DNA from: Candidatus Nitrosotalea okcheonensis
GTDB lineage: Archaea; Thermoproteota; Nitrososphaeria; Nitrososphaerales; Nitrosopumilaceae
NCBI RefSeq assembly: GCF_900177045.1
Contig: NZ_LT841358.1
Location: 327,073 to 391,072 of the forward strand
DNA: 64,000 nucleotides
Direction: 5' to 3'
Part shown: piece by piece, positions 22,225 to 51,235 of the stretch
How the letters are laid out: every line of letters begins with the position of its first letter
Position numbering within the stretch: the first letter of the stretch is position 1
The notes under the pieces: model-generated
Told to the model about the DNA's origin: nothing
Database searches by the model: none
What the model saw: the letters and a program-made list of their open reading frames with translations, nothing else
Translations under genes and position numbers: made by a program

Positions 22225-22566
22225 GTGCGACGGTGTGATTTTTGCGGATCTGAGTTTGGGGATAGAACATGTTACTTTTGTGACAAGCACTGTTGCACTT
22301 CATGCATGACAGATGATAGGACTAGATGCAAGCGTTGCTATATTGCAAAAAGAAAACTTGGTTGGAGAATTTTCAAGAAAAACAAAGTCTTGCTTGGGTT
22401 TATTGCATTTGTTTGGGCCTATACTGTATTTCCAGTTCCTTTGATAAAGGGGATTGATCCAACTTTTTACTGGATTTCATTCGGGGTTGCAATAATGATA
22501 ATGATTCCAATTAGTCTTGCAATGTTCTTTTGGTCAAGAGAGCCGCCTGTGTCTGACCTCAAATGA
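22225..22566 (+). CDS. Zinc-finger membrane protein
   Basis: The N-terminal ~45 residues contain repeated CxxC knuckles (CDFCGSEF, CYFCDKHCC, SCM, CKRC) resembling a treble-clef or B-box-like double zinc site. Two membrane helices follow (KVLLGFIAFVWAYTVFPVPL and ISFGVAIMIMIPISLAMFFW). Function unknown; a membrane-anchored zinc ribbon could recruit a protein partner. It starts with GTG, about 26 bases after TATA-like cataaaaagataaa (22188-22200). It converges on leuB with an 8-base overlap. Confidence 0.65.
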   Translation: MRRCDFCGSEFGDRTCYFCDKHCCTSCMTDDRTRCKRCYIAKRKLGWRIFKKNKVLLGFIAFVWAYTVFPVPLIKGIDPTFYWISFGVAIMIMIPISLAMFFWSREPPVSDLK

Positions 22567-23575
22567 TACGCGATATCACGTTTTGTGTAAATTCTTTTGT
22601 GCTCTTGTTTCCGCCAATGTCTCTAGTCTTTATTCCATCTTTGACAATACCGTAAACTGCATCCTCGATTTTTTTTGCAACATCCTGGCATGACTTGTCA
22701 CTATTTTTTATCCCAAGCCACTCAAACATCATCTTTGCAGACAAAATAAATGATGATGGGTTTGCTACCTGTTTTCCTGCAATGTCAAAGGCTGCCCCAT
22801 GTACAGGCTCAAACAATGCAAATCTATCTCCAATATTTGCAGCTGGGGCCATTCCAAGTCCGCCCACAACTTGCGATGCTTCATCTGATAATATGTCACC
22901 AAACAAATTTGTGGTTACAATAACATCAAAGGACTCTGGCTGTCTTATTAGATTCATGGCACAGGCATCTACATACATGTGCTCAAATGTAATTTTTGGA
23001 TATCTCTTTGCTACCTGCTCACATGTCTTTGCAAATAATCCATCTGTTTTTCGCATTACATTTGACTTGTGTACACAAGTGACTTTTCTTTTTCCATCTC
23101 GCTGCTCAGATGTAGCAAATGCATGTCTTGCAATTCTCTCAGATGCATTCTTTGATATTGAGCGTAATGCAATGATGGTCTCGCCCACTTCAAACTCCAT
23201 GCCAGTGTATAGATCCTCTGTGTTTTCTCTTACTATTACCATGTCAATATTTTCCTTCAATGCTGGCATGTTTGGATAAGACTTGGCAGGCCTGATGTTT
23301 GCATAAAGGTCTAACAATCTCCGCAATACTACAATGACATCTGCTGCACTCTCTCCAACTGGGGCCTTGAGACATGCATCTGATTTTTTTATCTGCTCTA
23401 CTGTTTCGTCTGGTAATGCCTTTCCTGTTTTTTTGAGTGCTGCATCGCCTGCTTGTAGTTTTGTAACCTCGACTTTGACTCCAAGATTGTCATTTATAAC
23501 GTCTAGTACATCTATTACTGATTCTGATAATTCCGGGCCTATTCCATCACCCGTAATGAGTGCTATTTTGTACAT
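22559..23575 (-). CDS. leuB: 3-Isopropylmalate dehydrogenase
   Basis: A β-decarboxylating dehydrogenase of the IPMDH/ICDH family, 338 aa. The catalytic block TTNLFGDILSDEASQV, the arginine motif VVLRRLLDLYANIRP and the NAD-type EPVHGAAFDIAGK (Asp, hence NAD rather than NADP) are seen. The sequence alone could also suit homoisocitrate or isocitrate dehydrogenase, but its position directly after leuA (leuA stop at 23576, this start at 23575) makes leucine synthesis the likely role. It is the last gene of the ilvB-ilvN-leuA-leuB operon. Confidence 0.85.
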   Translation of the reverse strand: MYKIALITGDGIGPELSESVIDVLDVINDNLGVKVEVTKLQAGDAALKKTGKALPDETVEQIKKSDACLKAPVGESAADVIVVLRRLLDLYANIRPAKSYPNMPALKENIDMVIVRENTEDLYTGMEFEVGETIIALRSISKNASERIARHAFATSEQRDGKRKVTCVHKSNVMRKTDGLFAKTCEQVAKRYPKITFEHMYVDACAMNLIRQPESFDVIVTTNLFGDILSDEASQVVGGLGMAPAANIGDRFALFEPVHGAAFDIAGKQVANPSSFILSAKMMFEWLGIKNSDKSCQDVAKKIEDAVYGIVKDGIKTRDIGGNKSTKEFTQNVISRII

Positions 23576-25099
23576 TTACTGTCCCAGATTTTTTTGCTTG
23601 AGTATTTTTTTGAGCATGATTCTGTTTATTCCGTCTATCATGGCCTGTACACTTGTGATAACAATGTCTTCTCCCACTGATTTTGCTGAAGCTTGGTTGC
23701 CATATGGATCTTCTACCTTGATTGTAACTTCACACAAGGCCTCTGAACCTCCTGAGATTGAATCCAGCTTGTAATCCTTTATTCTCACTTTGGATATTTC
23801 CCCCGTAATTTTTTGTATTGCATTAATTGATGCATCCACTGGACCTACACCATAATCCGTACTGATAAAGTCCTTACCTTCTATGTTTAGTTTGACAAAG
23901 GCATACGGCATGTTTCCAATCCCTGTTGATACTGAAAAGCCAATCAAGTGAACAAGTCTCTTCAACCCTGGTTGTTGCATGACTTCGCCTGTAATTCCAA
24001 GAAGCTCGACATCCGTTACATGTTTTCCCAGATCTCCTAGTTTCTTGACTCTTTCCAATATTTCATGGGTCTGCTCCTTTGAGGGCTGGATGCCATATTC
24101 CTCAAGCATTGCCGCAATTCCATGCGCTCCTGCATGTTTTCCTACTTGGAACCATCTGGTTCTGCCGACTAGTTCCGGACTGATTGGCTCGTATGTCAAT
24201 GGGTTGCTTAGGACGCCATGGGTGTGAATTCCAGATTCGTGACCAAATGCATTTTCTCCCACAATTGCCTTGTTTGGCTGGACCTGTATTCCAACTGTTT
24301 TTGAAATATATCGTGATGTCTCATAGAGAAGTTTGGTGTTGATGTTTGTTTCATATTTTTTATCAAACTGTAAGCATTGCAACCCCATGACGAGTTCTTC
24401 CAACGATGCATTTCCAGCTCGCTCCCCAATTCCATTTACTGTAACATGTGCGCATTGTGCGCCTGCTTGTATTGCAGATATTGCGTTTGCTACCGCTAGT
24501 CCAAAATCATTGTGACAATGAACACTTACGGGTAAATGTGTGGCATCAATAGTATCCTTTGTAATGGCCGCAATATATTGTGGGGTGGAATATCCTACGG
24601 TATCTGGAATGTCTAGCCTGTCAGCACCTGCATCTGTCACTGCCTTGAATACTTTTTTTAGAAATTCCCTTTCTGTTCGCGTAGCATCCTCTGCTGAAAA
24701 TTCAACCTTCAAGCCAAGTGACTTGGCATATTGTACGGCATCGACTGCTTTTGCTAGCGCCTGTTCTCTTGTTAGTTTTAGTTTGTACTGGAGATGTATG
24801 TCTGATGTTGCGATGAATGTGTGGATATAATCCAAACCTACTGCAACAGCTGCATCGATATCCTTTCTTTCTGTTCTTGCCAGCCCACAAATCTCTGCCT
24901 TTAGTCCCGTACTCGTAATTGATTTGATTGCTAACCTTTCACCATCTGATATGATTGGAAATCCTGCCTCGATTGCATCAACACCTAGTTCATCTAGCTT
25001 TTGCGCTATTGCAAGTTTTTGATCAGGAGTCAAGGCCACGCCCGGAGTCTGTTCTCCATCTCTTAATGTAGTGTCAAAAATTCTAATCTTCATTTGCAT
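23576..25099 (-). CDS. leuA: 2-Isopropylmalate synthase
   Basis: Condenses 2-ketoisovalerate with acetyl-CoA. HMGL-type TIM barrel signatures are present: FDTTLRDGEQTPG near the N-terminus, SVHCHNDFGLAVAN metal-binding histidines, and GERAGNASLEE. The C-terminal ~120 residues form the LeuA regulatory dimer domain. Length 507 is normal for LeuA. Citramalate synthase is an alternative within the family, but operon context with ilvBN and leuB favours LeuA. Its start overlaps the end of ilvN by 17 bases. Confidence 0.9.
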   Translation of the reverse strand: MQMKIRIFDTTLRDGEQTPGVALTPDQKLAIAQKLDELGVDAIEAGFPIISDGERLAIKSITSTGLKAEICGLARTERKDIDAAVAVGLDYIHTFIATSDIHLQYKLKLTREQALAKAVDAVQYAKSLGLKVEFSAEDATRTEREFLKKVFKAVTDAGADRLDIPDTVGYSTPQYIAAITKDTIDATHLPVSVHCHNDFGLAVANAISAIQAGAQCAHVTVNGIGERAGNASLEELVMGLQCLQFDKKYETNINTKLLYETSRYISKTVGIQVQPNKAIVGENAFGHESGIHTHGVLSNPLTYEPISPELVGRTRWFQVGKHAGAHGIAAMLEEYGIQPSKEQTHEILERVKKLGDLGKHVTDVELLGITGEVMQQPGLKRLVHLIGFSVSTGIGNMPYAFVKLNIEGKDFISTDYGVGPVDASINAIQKITGEISKVRIKDYKLDSISGGSEALCEVTIKVEDPYGNQASAKSVGEDIVITSVQAMIDGINRIMLKKILKQKNLGQ

Positions 25100-25574
25100 G
25101 TCCTCTTGCCAGTGCGCATATTCCAGTTCGTGCCATTTCTAAAATCCCATATCCTTTTACAAGATCTTCTAAAGCATTAATTCTATCGGGGGTAGCAGTA
25201 ATCTCTATTATGATTGAAGACTTTCTTACATCATGTACATCACACTTGAAAGCATTTGCAAGGTCTGTTATCTCTTTGATGTCTGTTGGCTTTGACACTT
25301 TTAGTTTCATCATGACAAGCTCTCGGTATATGCTTTTTTTCTCCTCTAATACTTTTACTTCTAATGTATCAATTAATTTGTCTAACTGCTTTACTATTTG
25401 ACTGAGTTGTTTTTCATCTGCTTCTGTAGTGATTGTCATTCTTGACACTTCAGGATTCTCAGTTATGCCTACTGATATGCTGTCTATGTTATAGTTCCTT
25501 GATCTAAACAAGTTTGTAATCTTGAACAATACTCCCGGTTTGTTTTCAACTAGAACTGAAATTATTGACCACAT
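25083..25574 (-). CDS. ilvN: Acetolactate synthase regulatory (small) subunit
   Basis: An N-terminal ACT domain (SVLVENKPGVLFKITNLFRSRNYNIDSISVG) and a C-terminal ALS-ss domain, 163 aa in all, as in IlvN/IlvH. It confers valine feedback control on the catalytic subunit encoded 9 bases upstream. It overlaps leuA by 17 bases, so the three genes are translationally linked. Confidence 0.93.
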   Translation of the reverse strand: MWSIISVLVENKPGVLFKITNLFRSRNYNIDSISVGITENPEVSRMTITTEADEKQLSQIVKQLDKLIDTLEVKVLEEKKSIYRELVMMKLKVSKPTDIKEITDLANAFKCDVHDVRKSSIIIEITATPDRINALEDLVKGYGILEMARTGICALARGHANED

Positions 25575-25583
25575 AATATCTCA

Positions 25584-27272
25584 CTATGATGGTAAGATCA
25601 TGTCCTTGAGAGATGTTCCTGGAGCAACAAATGGTAGCACATCTTCCTGCGGGTCAATTGGTACGTCTATGACAGTTGCAACATTGCTCTTCAAGGCTGT
25701 CTGGACCGCTTTTCCAATTTCATCAATTGTCTGGGCTCGTATTCCATGTGCTCCGTATGCTTCTGCTACCTTGACATAATCTGGACAATTCTTTAGATCT
25801 ACTCCAATCATTCTCCTGTCGTAAAATGTTCTCTGCCACTGGGCTACCATTCCGAGTGTAAAGTTATTTAGCAAAAGCACTATGACCGGCAAGTCCTCTA
25901 GCACTGATACTGCAAGTGAATTCTCTGTCATGTTAAAACTTCCTTCTCCTGCTATGTCAAGTACTGGGACATCTGGTTTTGCTGCCTTGGCACCTATTGC
26001 TGCTGGGAATCCCCAACCCATTGTTCCAAGACCTGTAGAGCTGAAAAACGTTCCTGGCTGTATTACGTCAAAGAACAACGAGGCCCACATTTGGTGTTGT
26101 CCAACTTCGGTAGTTACAATTGACTGTGCAGGTAACACCTCTCTTAATTTTTTGAGAACTTTGGATGCTGCTAATGGGTGTGGATGAATTTTGAGGTTTT
26201 CTCTATAGTATTCCTTTGTCTCCTTTACTCTTTTCCCCCACGCACTTTCTCCGTTGCGTTTGATTGCTTTTTGGATTAGCATTTTTACCATGATTCTAAG
26301 TGATGTCTTTACGTCTCCTACCACGGCTACATTTGTGGTCTGGTTCTTTCCTATCTCTGCAGGGTCTACATCCATATGTATGATTTTCAAGTTTCTCTCA
26401 AACTCTTCAAATGTACCAACAGACCTGTCAGAAAATCTCGAACCGCATGCAAGAACACAGTCAGCCTCTGTCATCATTTTGTTTGCTTCTGCATGACCGT
26501 GCATTCCTATTGGTCCAAGTGAGAGAGGATGATTTTCTGGAAATGATCCTTTTCCTTTGAATGTAGTTACAACTGGTATCATGAGTAATTCTGCGATTGA
26601 CTGGAGTTCTGCAAACGCGCTTGATATTATTACTCCGCCGCCTGCAAGAATTATCGGTCTTTCTGCAGATAGTAGCATATCTGTTGCTCTCTCAATTGCT
26701 GTTATGTCTGGGTCAACCCATGGATGGTATCCTCTAATTTTTACCTCGGAAGGAAAATGAATCTCTGCTTCGTTTTGTTGTACGTCCTTTGGAATGTCTA
26801 TCAATACAGGACCAGGTCTTCCTGTTGATGCAATGTAAAATGCTTTTTTTACTACCTCTGGAATCTCTGTTGGACTCATTGGCTGGAATGCATATTTTAC
26901 TATGGGGTTTGTGATCCCGATGATGTCACTTTCTTGAAATGCATCACGTCCTATCATCTTTGAAGGAACTTGACCAGTAATTGCAATCATTGGTGCCGAG
27001 TCTGCTTGGGCTGTTGCAATTCCTGTAACAATGTTTGTTGCACCTGGCCCTGATGTTGCAAAACATACTCCAGGCCTTCGGCTCACTCTGCCAAAACCAT
27101 CTGCCATGTGTGAGGCAGACTGTTCATGTCTTACTAACACGTGACGAATGTTGCTCTTGTAAAGCTCATCATAAATTGGCAAGTTTGCACCTCCCGGTAA
27201 CCCAAAGGCTATTTCCACACCTTCTTTTTCCAAAGCGATCATCAAAGACCTAGCACCTGATATTTTTTCCAT
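25584..27272 (-). CDS. ilvB: Acetolactate synthase catalytic (large) subunit
   Basis: A ThDP-dependent enzyme making acetolactate or acetohydroxybutyrate. The three-domain architecture is clear: the N-terminal Pyr domain with HEQSASHMADGFGR (glutamate that activates ThDP), the central FAD-binding domain, and the C-terminal PP domain. The ThDP-Mg motif reads GEGSF…LLLNN, with Glu where GDG is usual. First gene of the branched-chain operon. It has an SD-like GGAG about 10 bases before the ATG and a long structured leader, unlike most genes here, which are leaderless. Confidence 0.95.
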   Translation of the reverse strand: MEKISGARSLMIALEKEGVEIAFGLPGGANLPIYDELYKSNIRHVLVRHEQSASHMADGFGRVSRRPGVCFATSGPGATNIVTGIATAQADSAPMIAITGQVPSKMIGRDAFQESDIIGITNPIVKYAFQPMSPTEIPEVVKKAFYIASTGRPGPVLIDIPKDVQQNEAEIHFPSEVKIRGYHPWVDPDITAIERATDMLLSAERPIILAGGGVIISSAFAELQSIAELLMIPVVTTFKGKGSFPENHPLSLGPIGMHGHAEANKMMTEADCVLACGSRFSDRSVGTFEEFERNLKIIHMDVDPAEIGKNQTTNVAVVGDVKTSLRIMVKMLIQKAIKRNGESAWGKRVKETKEYYRENLKIHPHPLAASKVLKKLREVLPAQSIVTTEVGQHQMWASLFFDVIQPGTFFSSTGLGTMGWGFPAAIGAKAAKPDVPVLDIAGEGSFNMTENSLAVSVLEDLPVIVLLLNNFTLGMVAQWQRTFYDRRMIGVDLKNCPDYVKVAEAYGAHGIRAQTIDEIGKAVQTALKSNVATVIDVPIDPQEDVLPFVAPGTSLKDMILPS

Positions 27273-27290
27273 AATTTTCTATCTCCGAAA

Positions 27291-27350
27291 ATTGCTGTAT
27301 CTTACAGCACAATCTCGACTAGCAACAAAATACTTGAAATGCTTGTCGAG
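27291..27350 (-). promoter_or_regulatory. Two-hairpin leader upstream of ilvB
   Basis: Two inverted repeats lie in the 5' leader of the minus-strand ilvB operon. The outer one pairs 27314-27324 with 27340-27350 (11 bp, one mismatch, core CTCGAC/GTCGAG, 15-base loop). The inner one pairs 27293-27299 with 27303-27309 (TGCTGTA/TACAGCA, 3-base loop) and can extend with one bulge to ATTG/CAAT. The inner stem ends shortly before the SD-like GGAG and start codon, so it could gate translation. Confidence 0.5.
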
Positions 27351-27356
27351 TCTATT

Positions 27357-27666
27357 TCTACCATACCTATCTGTAATTTTTCTCTCTAAAATTGTTAATA
27401 AGCATTTTGTCTAAAAGTCTTAATATATTACCGCTTGGCTAGGCACGTTTAGGCACAATTTTGGGGTTATGGTCAAAAACTCAGATTAAAATCTGGTTGC
27501 TAGATTTTTGCGAAATGTTTCATAGCAGGCACGAAATGAAATCCTTGTGAAACATTTTCAGATTTTAATAATTTTTTCAGTACAACCTTTGAATTAGGAA
27601 GTTCAAATTTGCTGATTCTGTAGATTTTGTCATAAAGTTCTAAAACGGGAAAACAAGAAGGATTAT
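27357..27666. other. Intergenic region between ilvB leader and small membrane gene
   Basis: Apart from the promoter elements listed, there is a 6-bp hairpin cagatt-aa-aatctg at 27482-27495 and generally AT-rich sequence. No additional gene is supported. A weak TATA-like element near 27635-27645 would serve the downstream + strand gene. Confidence 0.3.
27421..27456. promoter_or_regulatory. TATA element and tandem TAGGCAC repeats before ilvB
   Basis: The near-palindromic TATA-like taatatatta (27421-27430) could drive ilvB on the minus strand with a leader of about 125 bases. Just upstream in that direction are two identical 7-mers TAGGCAC at 27440-27446 and 27450-27456, ten bases apart (one helical turn), a spacing expected for a dimeric activator. 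A second TATA-like ttattaa near 27393-27399 is an alternative. Confidence 0.4.
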
Positions 27667-27924
27667 GTGAAACTAAATTACAAAGTATTAATCATTTTAC
27701 TTGGAATTTGTTTTGGTAGTTTAGGTTTTGCAATTATAATTTCAAGTCTTGAAAGTATGATGCTTCCTCCTAACGGTAATGACATGATGCCATTGTCGAT
27801 AGTAAGTTACATGGGTTCAAATGTGAATCCATTACTTGCCTATGTTTTTTTTATAACTTTGATTATTGTTATAATTTATTCCGCATTTATCTTTAGACAA
27901 AAGATAATGCGAATACTTTCATAA
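27667..27924 (+). CDS. Small two-helix membrane protein
   Basis: An 85-residue protein with two membrane helices (VLIILLGICFGSLGFAIIIS and LLAYVFFITLIIVIIYSAFIF) joined by a Met/Asn-rich loop (MMLPPNGNDMMP). It starts with GTG. No family is recognised. It opens the accessory AT-rich region that runs to about 31.4 kb. Confidence 0.5.
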   Translation: MKLNYKVLIILLGICFGSLGFAIIISSLESMMLPPNGNDMMPLSIVSYMGSNVNPLLAYVFFITLIIVIIYSAFIFRQKIMRILS

Positions 27925-51170: not shown

Positions 51171-51235
51171 CTATTTAAAATTAAGCCGTGCGCAAGATTA
51201 CATATATTACGGTATGGTACGGTACCTTTATATGC
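51171..51235. promoter_or_regulatory. Divergent promoter with GGTAY repeats between trpE and a small gene
   Basis: The minus-strand TATA for trpE is ttttaaatag at 51171-51180. The + strand TATA tttatat at ~51227-51233 is ~26 bases before the ATG at 51256. Between them three GGTAY steps run in tandem (ggtat-ggtac-ggtacc, 51211-51226), ending in the palindrome GGTACC that abuts the + strand TATA. Confidence 0.4.

Follow-up and report, generated by a model that had tools for sequence, protein, structure and literature searches.

What controls expression of the branched-chain biosynthesis operon in this window, the 64,000-nucleotide stretch of Candidatus Nitrosotalea okcheonensis DNA that we analyzed? 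On the minus strand of this ammonia-oxidizing archaeon, ilvB, whose product opens branched-chain amino acid synthesis, comes first, followed by ilvN, leuA, and a leuB-like gene, which scored just below the cutoff of the archaeal LEU3 model in an NCBIfam search (Table 1). The initial annotation had described an 11-bp stem with one mismatch and a 7-bp stem upstream of ilvB, as well as two TAGGCAC copies one helical turn apart, and had proposed a novel RNA switch combined with an activator site. We found both stems, here called P1 and H2, and both repeats. We also found that this annotation overlooked the central feature of the leader, which is an open reading frame (ORF) within the hairpins.

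Table 1. Position of the operon genes, leader elements, and promoter elements in the window
Feature	Position	Strand	Basis or detail
ilvB, acetolactate synthase large subunit	25584..27272	-	NCBIfam TIGR00118 over cutoff
ilvN, acetolactate synthase small subunit	25083..25574	-	NCBIfam NF008864 and TIGR00119 over cutoff
leuA, 2-isopropylmalate synthase	23576..25099	-	NCBIfam NF002085 and NF002086 over cutoff
leuB-like isopropylmalate dehydrogenase	22559..23575	-	Operon position; TIGR02088, 408.0 bits versus cutoff of 409.8
Shine-Dalgarno (SD) GGAG of ilvB	27283..27286	-	Sequence; begins six nt past H2
P3, AU-rich 7-bp stem, SD in loop	27273..27293	-	27287-27293 with 27273-27279; not kept in all relatives
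Alternative SD-hiding pairing	27285..27318	-	27313-27318 (P1 3′ arm) with 27285-27290; excludes P1; minimum-energy fold
H2 hairpin, holds leader stop codon	27293..27309	-	27303-27309 with 27293-27299; ends 6 nt before SD
P1 hairpin, inside leader ORF	27314..27350	-	27340-27350 with 27314-27324, one A-A mismatch; fold; covariation
Leader ORF, 20 codons, MVEIDSTSISSILLLVEIVL then stop	27302..27364	-	ATG 27364-27362, TAA 27304-27302; translation; conserved orthologous ORF
TATA-like box TTATTAA	27395..27401	-	Predicted transcription start about 27372
Second TATA-like stretch TAATATATTAAG	27420..27431	-	Within 25-nt tandem duplication of promoter region; common to four relatives
Tandem TAGGCAC repeats, possible operator	27440..27456	+	27440-27446 and 27450-27456; 10 bp apart

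The leader ORF reads ATG GTA GAA ATA GAC TCG ACA AGC ATT TCA AGT ATT TTG TTG CTA GTC GAG ATT GTG CTG TAA, and its stop codon lies 29 nt before the ilvB start. Codons 12 to 16 encode Ile-Leu-Leu-Leu-Val and codons 18 to 20 encode Ile-Val-Leu, so that Ile, Leu, and Val fill eight of the final nine positions. Both hairpins overlap the ORF: P1 lies within it, the Leu-Leu-Val-Glu codons falling on the 3′ arm, and H2 contains the stop codon.

We scored each leader by the number of Ile, Leu, and Val codons among the nine before the stop and used dinucleotide shuffles as the null, 300 of them setting a floor of P = 0.0033. This floor was reached by 30 of 30 Nitrosotalea leaders; such P values for one genus are not independent and are optimistic because the sequences are related, and the real evidence is the spread over genera. 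The Nitrosotalea leaders averaged 7.5 such codons, versus 1.55 in the shuffles. The window's ilvB leader, with a score of 8, ranked highest among the 68 ORF starts in the window, the next being 6. None of 85 other Nitrosotalea starts scored above 6, and all 60 ilvB genes taken from other organisms scored below 6. Ile, Leu, and Val were much denser in the last nine codons than in the earlier leader codons, where their share (0.247) was that of the window's genes (0.240). They also accounted for 95% of hydrophobic residues in these nine positions, with Phe, Ala, and Met nearly absent. Thus, residue identity, and not hydrophobicity, is kept. The pN/pS ratio of the ORF within the genus was 0.76, and another frame gave 0.64, which is no clear coding signature. 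This is probably explained by the RNA structure that the ORF also carries.

Leaders were collected from targeted regions upstream of ilvB. In an alignment with four relatives, a block of about 110 nt up to ilvB was conserved and the sequence beyond it had diverged. Across Nitrosotalea as well, the last ~110 nt before ilvB were nearly identical, with divergence further upstream, and the leader ORF was intact and in the same place in all 30 genomes. We found leaders rich in Ile, Leu, and Val in 16 of the 17 Nitrosopumilaceae genera sampled (one or more leaders per genus at P ≤ 0.05). Outside Nitrosotalea, the leaders of this family were very different in sequence and alike at their ends, which read GLLLLVDLVL, AVLLPVELVL, GILLLVDLKL, or SIVLLVVLVL before the stop. 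Leaders at P ≤ 0.05 also occurred elsewhere in the class Nitrososphaeria, in no fewer than four further families (f4, f6, f7, and f9). Examples from other families of the class are MSTFEIVVNGPEYTICLLDVGILSIILIL, MRSTMSERVSASSSSVALIVLLIVV, MDKRLSLTRLLNIDVLVVPLLVLLL, and MNPSGTMNVRVLSVPVLLVIQLLQ, each followed by a stop. The f4, f6, f7, and f9 leaders differ from one another in sequence, but all lie before ilvB and end in a stretch rich in Ile, Leu, and Val. Such an ORF was also found in family f23, which belongs to the same phylum and lies outside the class.

The leader was weak in family f3. It was absent from all four leaders of family f8 and from 5 of 14 leaders of genus g15 (L156, L157, L158, L166, and L168), and the four methanogen ilvB loci that we read had no such leader. 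Within Nitrosotalea, we found no cognate leader peptide at ilvC, ilvD, trpE, or hisG; ilvC and ilvD have a TATA-like box near the start codon. Most leader peptides had 16 to 27 residues, and they always lay directly before ilvB. Leader stop and ilvB were about 29 nt apart in Nitrosotalea, about 55 nt in Nitrosopumilus, and about 15 to 60 nt class-wide. In genus g29 of f4, the leader stop overlaps the ilvB SD.

Some leaders carried further elements. In one f9 locus (L237), just before ilvB, a GC hairpin and TTTTTT lie between the branched-chain leader and the SD; from its sequence, this archaeal arrangement resembles the terminator attenuators of bacteria. In the space between leader stop and ilvB, Nitrosopumilus-type loci (L124 to L129, L144 to L147, and L155 to L167) have a conserved AU hairpin and ATGGAG. 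The ATG of this motif opens a second mini-ORF (MEKNLVN or MEIDLIE, then stop), ending on the ilvB start, in several genera; in other Nitrosopumilus-type genera, the ATG is in frame with ilvB.

The promoter also has a fixed relation to the ORF. A recognizable TATA-like box was found in 75 leaders, and in 70 of them its center lay 29.5 to 35.5 nt upstream of the leader ATG; this spacing was fixed relative to the leader ATG, not to ilvB. The usual spacing from TATA box to transcription start in archaea is about 26 nt. Because of these two distances, the ORF is predicted to begin 3 to 9 nt into the mRNA and to be nearly leaderless. The predicted start also lies upstream of both hairpins, as the RNA control proposed in the initial annotation needed. 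We noted that the ilvB promoter contains a 25-nt tandem duplication (81%; 27404-27425 and 27380-27400) that creates two TATA-like boxes, of which only the downstream one is present in all relatives. Between this promoter and a small plus-strand ORF at 27667 lies a long imperfect hairpin (27485-27569; 11-bp and 10-bp stems; z of -2.5), part of which L087 retains with compensating changes.

We found that the hairpins are present in orthologues across the genus in a comparative leader alignment. P1 arms paired better with partners from their own genome than with arms swapped between genomes (-14.3 versus -12.4 kcal/mol; permutation P = 0.0002), as with CUCGACAAGCA/UGCUAGUCGAG in the window and CAACUAGC/GCUAGUUG in genus g20. 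H2 covaried only weakly (P = 0.06 for the genus group; adding three genera gave 0.007). P3 averaged 2.5 expected pairs over 37 leaders, versus 5.4 in the window. Nitrosopumilus-type leaders lack P1 and have an alternative stem, P0, which joins the leader start to sequence after the stop. P0 covaried in these leaders (P = 0.0002), with GAGCACA/UGUGCUC, GACCACA/UGUGGUC, and GGAUACA/UGUGUCC as pairs, and gave no signal in the other leader group (P = 0.87). The stems thus differ between lineages while the codon run stays, and therefore RNA structure has been replaced and the codon run kept. Comparison establishes the P1 stem and the leader ORF, along with the codon makeup of that ORF and its fixed place between the promoter and ilvB.

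The fold of the window's leader was moderately better than that of shuffles (z of -2.05; 5 of 200 shuffles were equally good). The segment from stop codon to SD gave a z of -3.6 on its own, and its minimum-energy fold is the SD-hiding pairing, for which we detected no covariation (P = 0.78). An Rfam search of the window returned no match to a known riboswitch or leader family at curated score. In the window, no U tract follows H2; U runs there reach four at most. A classical antiterminator, in which the 5′ arm of P1 would pair with the 5′ arm of H2, appeared plausible by eye and hardly formed in constrained folding.

We modeled folding with a ribosome placed at each leader codon. A ribosome on codons 13 to 20 removed P1 in the model and, from codons 15 to 16 on, also removed H2. 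In the window's clade, SD accessibility was predicted to be higher with the ribosome on Ile, Leu, and Val codons than on early codons by 0.375, compared with 0.078 in shuffled leaders; for the window itself, the predicted gain was 0.62. In this clade, the SD opens in the model because the 3′ arm of P1 otherwise pairs with UUUCGG at the SD. The same model gave no such gain in the sister clade (0.048 versus 0.026 in shuffled leaders). Since the effect is missing there and the pairing does not covary, we regard SD sequestration by the P1 3′ arm as a weak submodel.

We found an upstream short ORF with a run of end-product codons (30/30 Nitrosotalea leaders and 16/17 genera), together with RNA stems whose conservation is indicated by P1 covariation and which, in the masking model, a ribosome stalled on the leader would open. 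On this sequence evidence, the leader probably senses charged Ile, Leu, and Val tRNA and acts as a leader-peptide (ribosome-mediated) attenuator of ilvBN-leuAB. We infer that the leader is translated, that ribosomes stall in it, in which direction the operon responds, and that the effect falls on the start of translation and not on transcription. According to this model, transcription would start a few bases 5′ of the 20-codon ORF, and ribosomes would enter almost leaderlessly. When charged branched-chain tRNA is scarce, the ribosome would slow at codons 12 to 16 and 18 to 20. Halted there, it would sit on the P1 3′ arm, and at codon 15 or beyond it would mask the H2 5′ arm as well. This would leave the ilvB start region open and raise ilvBN-leuAB expression. 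With ample amino acids, the ribosome would finish and leave, the hairpins would refold beside the SD, and expression would fall. Freeing of the ilvB start region upon stalling is, in our view, the likeliest route, with about an even chance of being correct; a transcriptional effect is the alternative.

Could the RNA act without the peptide? In a ligand-binding RNA switch, P1 and H2 would form an aptamer and the ORF would be fortuitous. Consistently with this, both hairpins are conserved in the genus, P1 covaries, and nucleotide conservation in the P1 arms exceeds what the peptide requires. However, there is no Rfam family match, other genera have P0 instead of P1 and yet keep the ORF, and an aptamer leaves unexplained why an open frame ends in Ile, Leu, and Val in at least 16 genera. 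The ORF is shared across genera and the stems differ, and therefore we favor ribosome-mediated attenuation over a ligand-binding RNA switch, which we consider quite improbable. Thus, the initial annotation was right to see a conserved RNA-based control element at ilvB, but the leader ORF points to a different kind of element from the one it proposed. If the ORF is translated, it might merely feed ribosomes to ilvB by termination and reinitiation (translational coupling), with no amino acid sensing. The 29 nt from leader stop to ilvB in the window and the overlap with the SD in g29 are in keeping with coupling, and reinitiation at leader peptides has been proposed for bacteria (PMC4833913). Coupling does not explain the near-exclusive use of Ile, Leu, and Val in the last nine residues, and the stop-to-start distance varies across the class (about 15 to 60 nt); we judge coupling unlikely. 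A small hydrophobic membrane peptide with its own function would account for a conserved hydrophobic C-terminal end. It is very improbable given that the hydrophobic residues are almost all Ile, Leu, and Val, that acidic residues break the run, and that the peptides, mostly of 16 to 27 residues, always lie directly before ilvB.

The tandem TAGGCAC repeat raises the question of whether control is transcriptional, with the repeat as operator and the leader hairpins secondary. The tandem has a single match in the whole genome. Together with the second TATA-like stretch, it is kept in five related Nitrosotalea genomes (L082, L083, L087, L090, and L094) despite diverged flanks. One copy of TTAGGCAC is also found upstream of ilvC in the window's own genome (L293) and in that of one Nitrosotalea relative. 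In contrast, most Nitrosotalea genomes lack the tandem upstream of ilvB, only a small subgroup having it, and all have the leader. The word TAGGCAC is also not enriched in the window, with 3 found versus 4.1 expected. Control chiefly by this operator is therefore improbable. The activator site proposed in the initial annotation is putative, the repeat being common to five close relatives only. The repeat may be an operator of local importance, and an operator and leader control could coexist.

Amino-acid-sensing leader peptides are textbook bacterial regulation, and many archaeal ribosomes start on leaderless mRNA. In Escherichia coli, the ilvGMEDA and leuABCD attenuators use three alternative pairings and an intrinsic terminator. 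Like these, the leader described here has an Ile/Leu/Val run in a short leader peptide and hairpins inside and after the leader ORF; unlike them, its antiterminator analogue hardly forms in our model. With no terminator, the window leader falls outside the transcription-terminator subtype of attenuators. In codon content and position, it resembles the Corynebacterium ilvB-II motif, or ilvBNC leader, for which ribosome-mediated attenuation has been proposed: there too, an ORF with many branched-chain codons lies immediately upstream of ilvB and overlaps hairpins (PMC10272879, PMC1262725). That leader is bacterial and has a candidate terminator hairpin with poly-U, whereas the one here is archaeal, has no poly-U after H2, and begins near the predicted mRNA 5′ end. 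The ilvB-OMG and ilvB (Leptospira) motifs are likewise structured RNAs upstream of ilvB, in which an upstream ORF rich in branched-chain residues was recognized later; they are reported from bacterial lineages (PMC10272879), and our Rfam search detected no relation to them. In ermC-type translational attenuation, a ribosome stalled on a leader peptide also alters downstream SD access (PMC10219788). There, the signal is an antibiotic acting on the ribosome; here, it would be tRNA charging, and our modeling supports SD release weakly.

We found no report of an archaeal leader-peptide attenuator in the literature searched, subscription journals being mostly outside its reach. One tool paper, in its available part, mentions archaea in a general sentence on upstream ORFs and gives no example (PMC10219788). 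The best reading of the sequences is that attenuation by a leader peptide, a bacterial kind of control, is found here in an archaeal host. On balance, we lean toward the view that leader-peptide attenuation of branched-chain synthesis is ancestral and class-wide in Nitrososphaeria, including the marine ammonia oxidizers, with near-leaderless ORFs, stems replaced several times, and the Ile/Leu/Val run kept. If the attenuator is confirmed, archaea would be shown to govern biosynthesis through the reading of a leader ORF, and this in a group among the most abundant microbes of sea and soil. The locus would then also make it easy to test how archaeal ribosomes relay a signal to the next gene.

Elsewhere in the window, a palindromic GGTACCGTACCATACCGTAAT (51206-51226, minus strand) lies upstream of trpE and is conserved before trpE in Nitrosotalea genomes; from its sequence, it is likely a repressor operator. 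The trpE start is seemingly a GTG close to a TATA-like box. A short conserved ORF of a different kind lies within the 180 nt upstream of ilvB in other families of Thermoproteota (L255 to L259, L261 to L263, L267, L274 to L276, L279 to L283, and L286). Its peptides begin MRDRHLN or MRDIRVRRNRYLH or read MKRDQALQVH, MRDGTLQV, MSGGTLQVH, or MVRDNPRQLGLL up to the stop. This mini-ORF often has its own SD and a small hairpin, with no Rfam match in the loci tested, and may be another type of ilvB leader or an arrest peptide. Therefore, leader peptides at ilvB may be widespread in the phylum.
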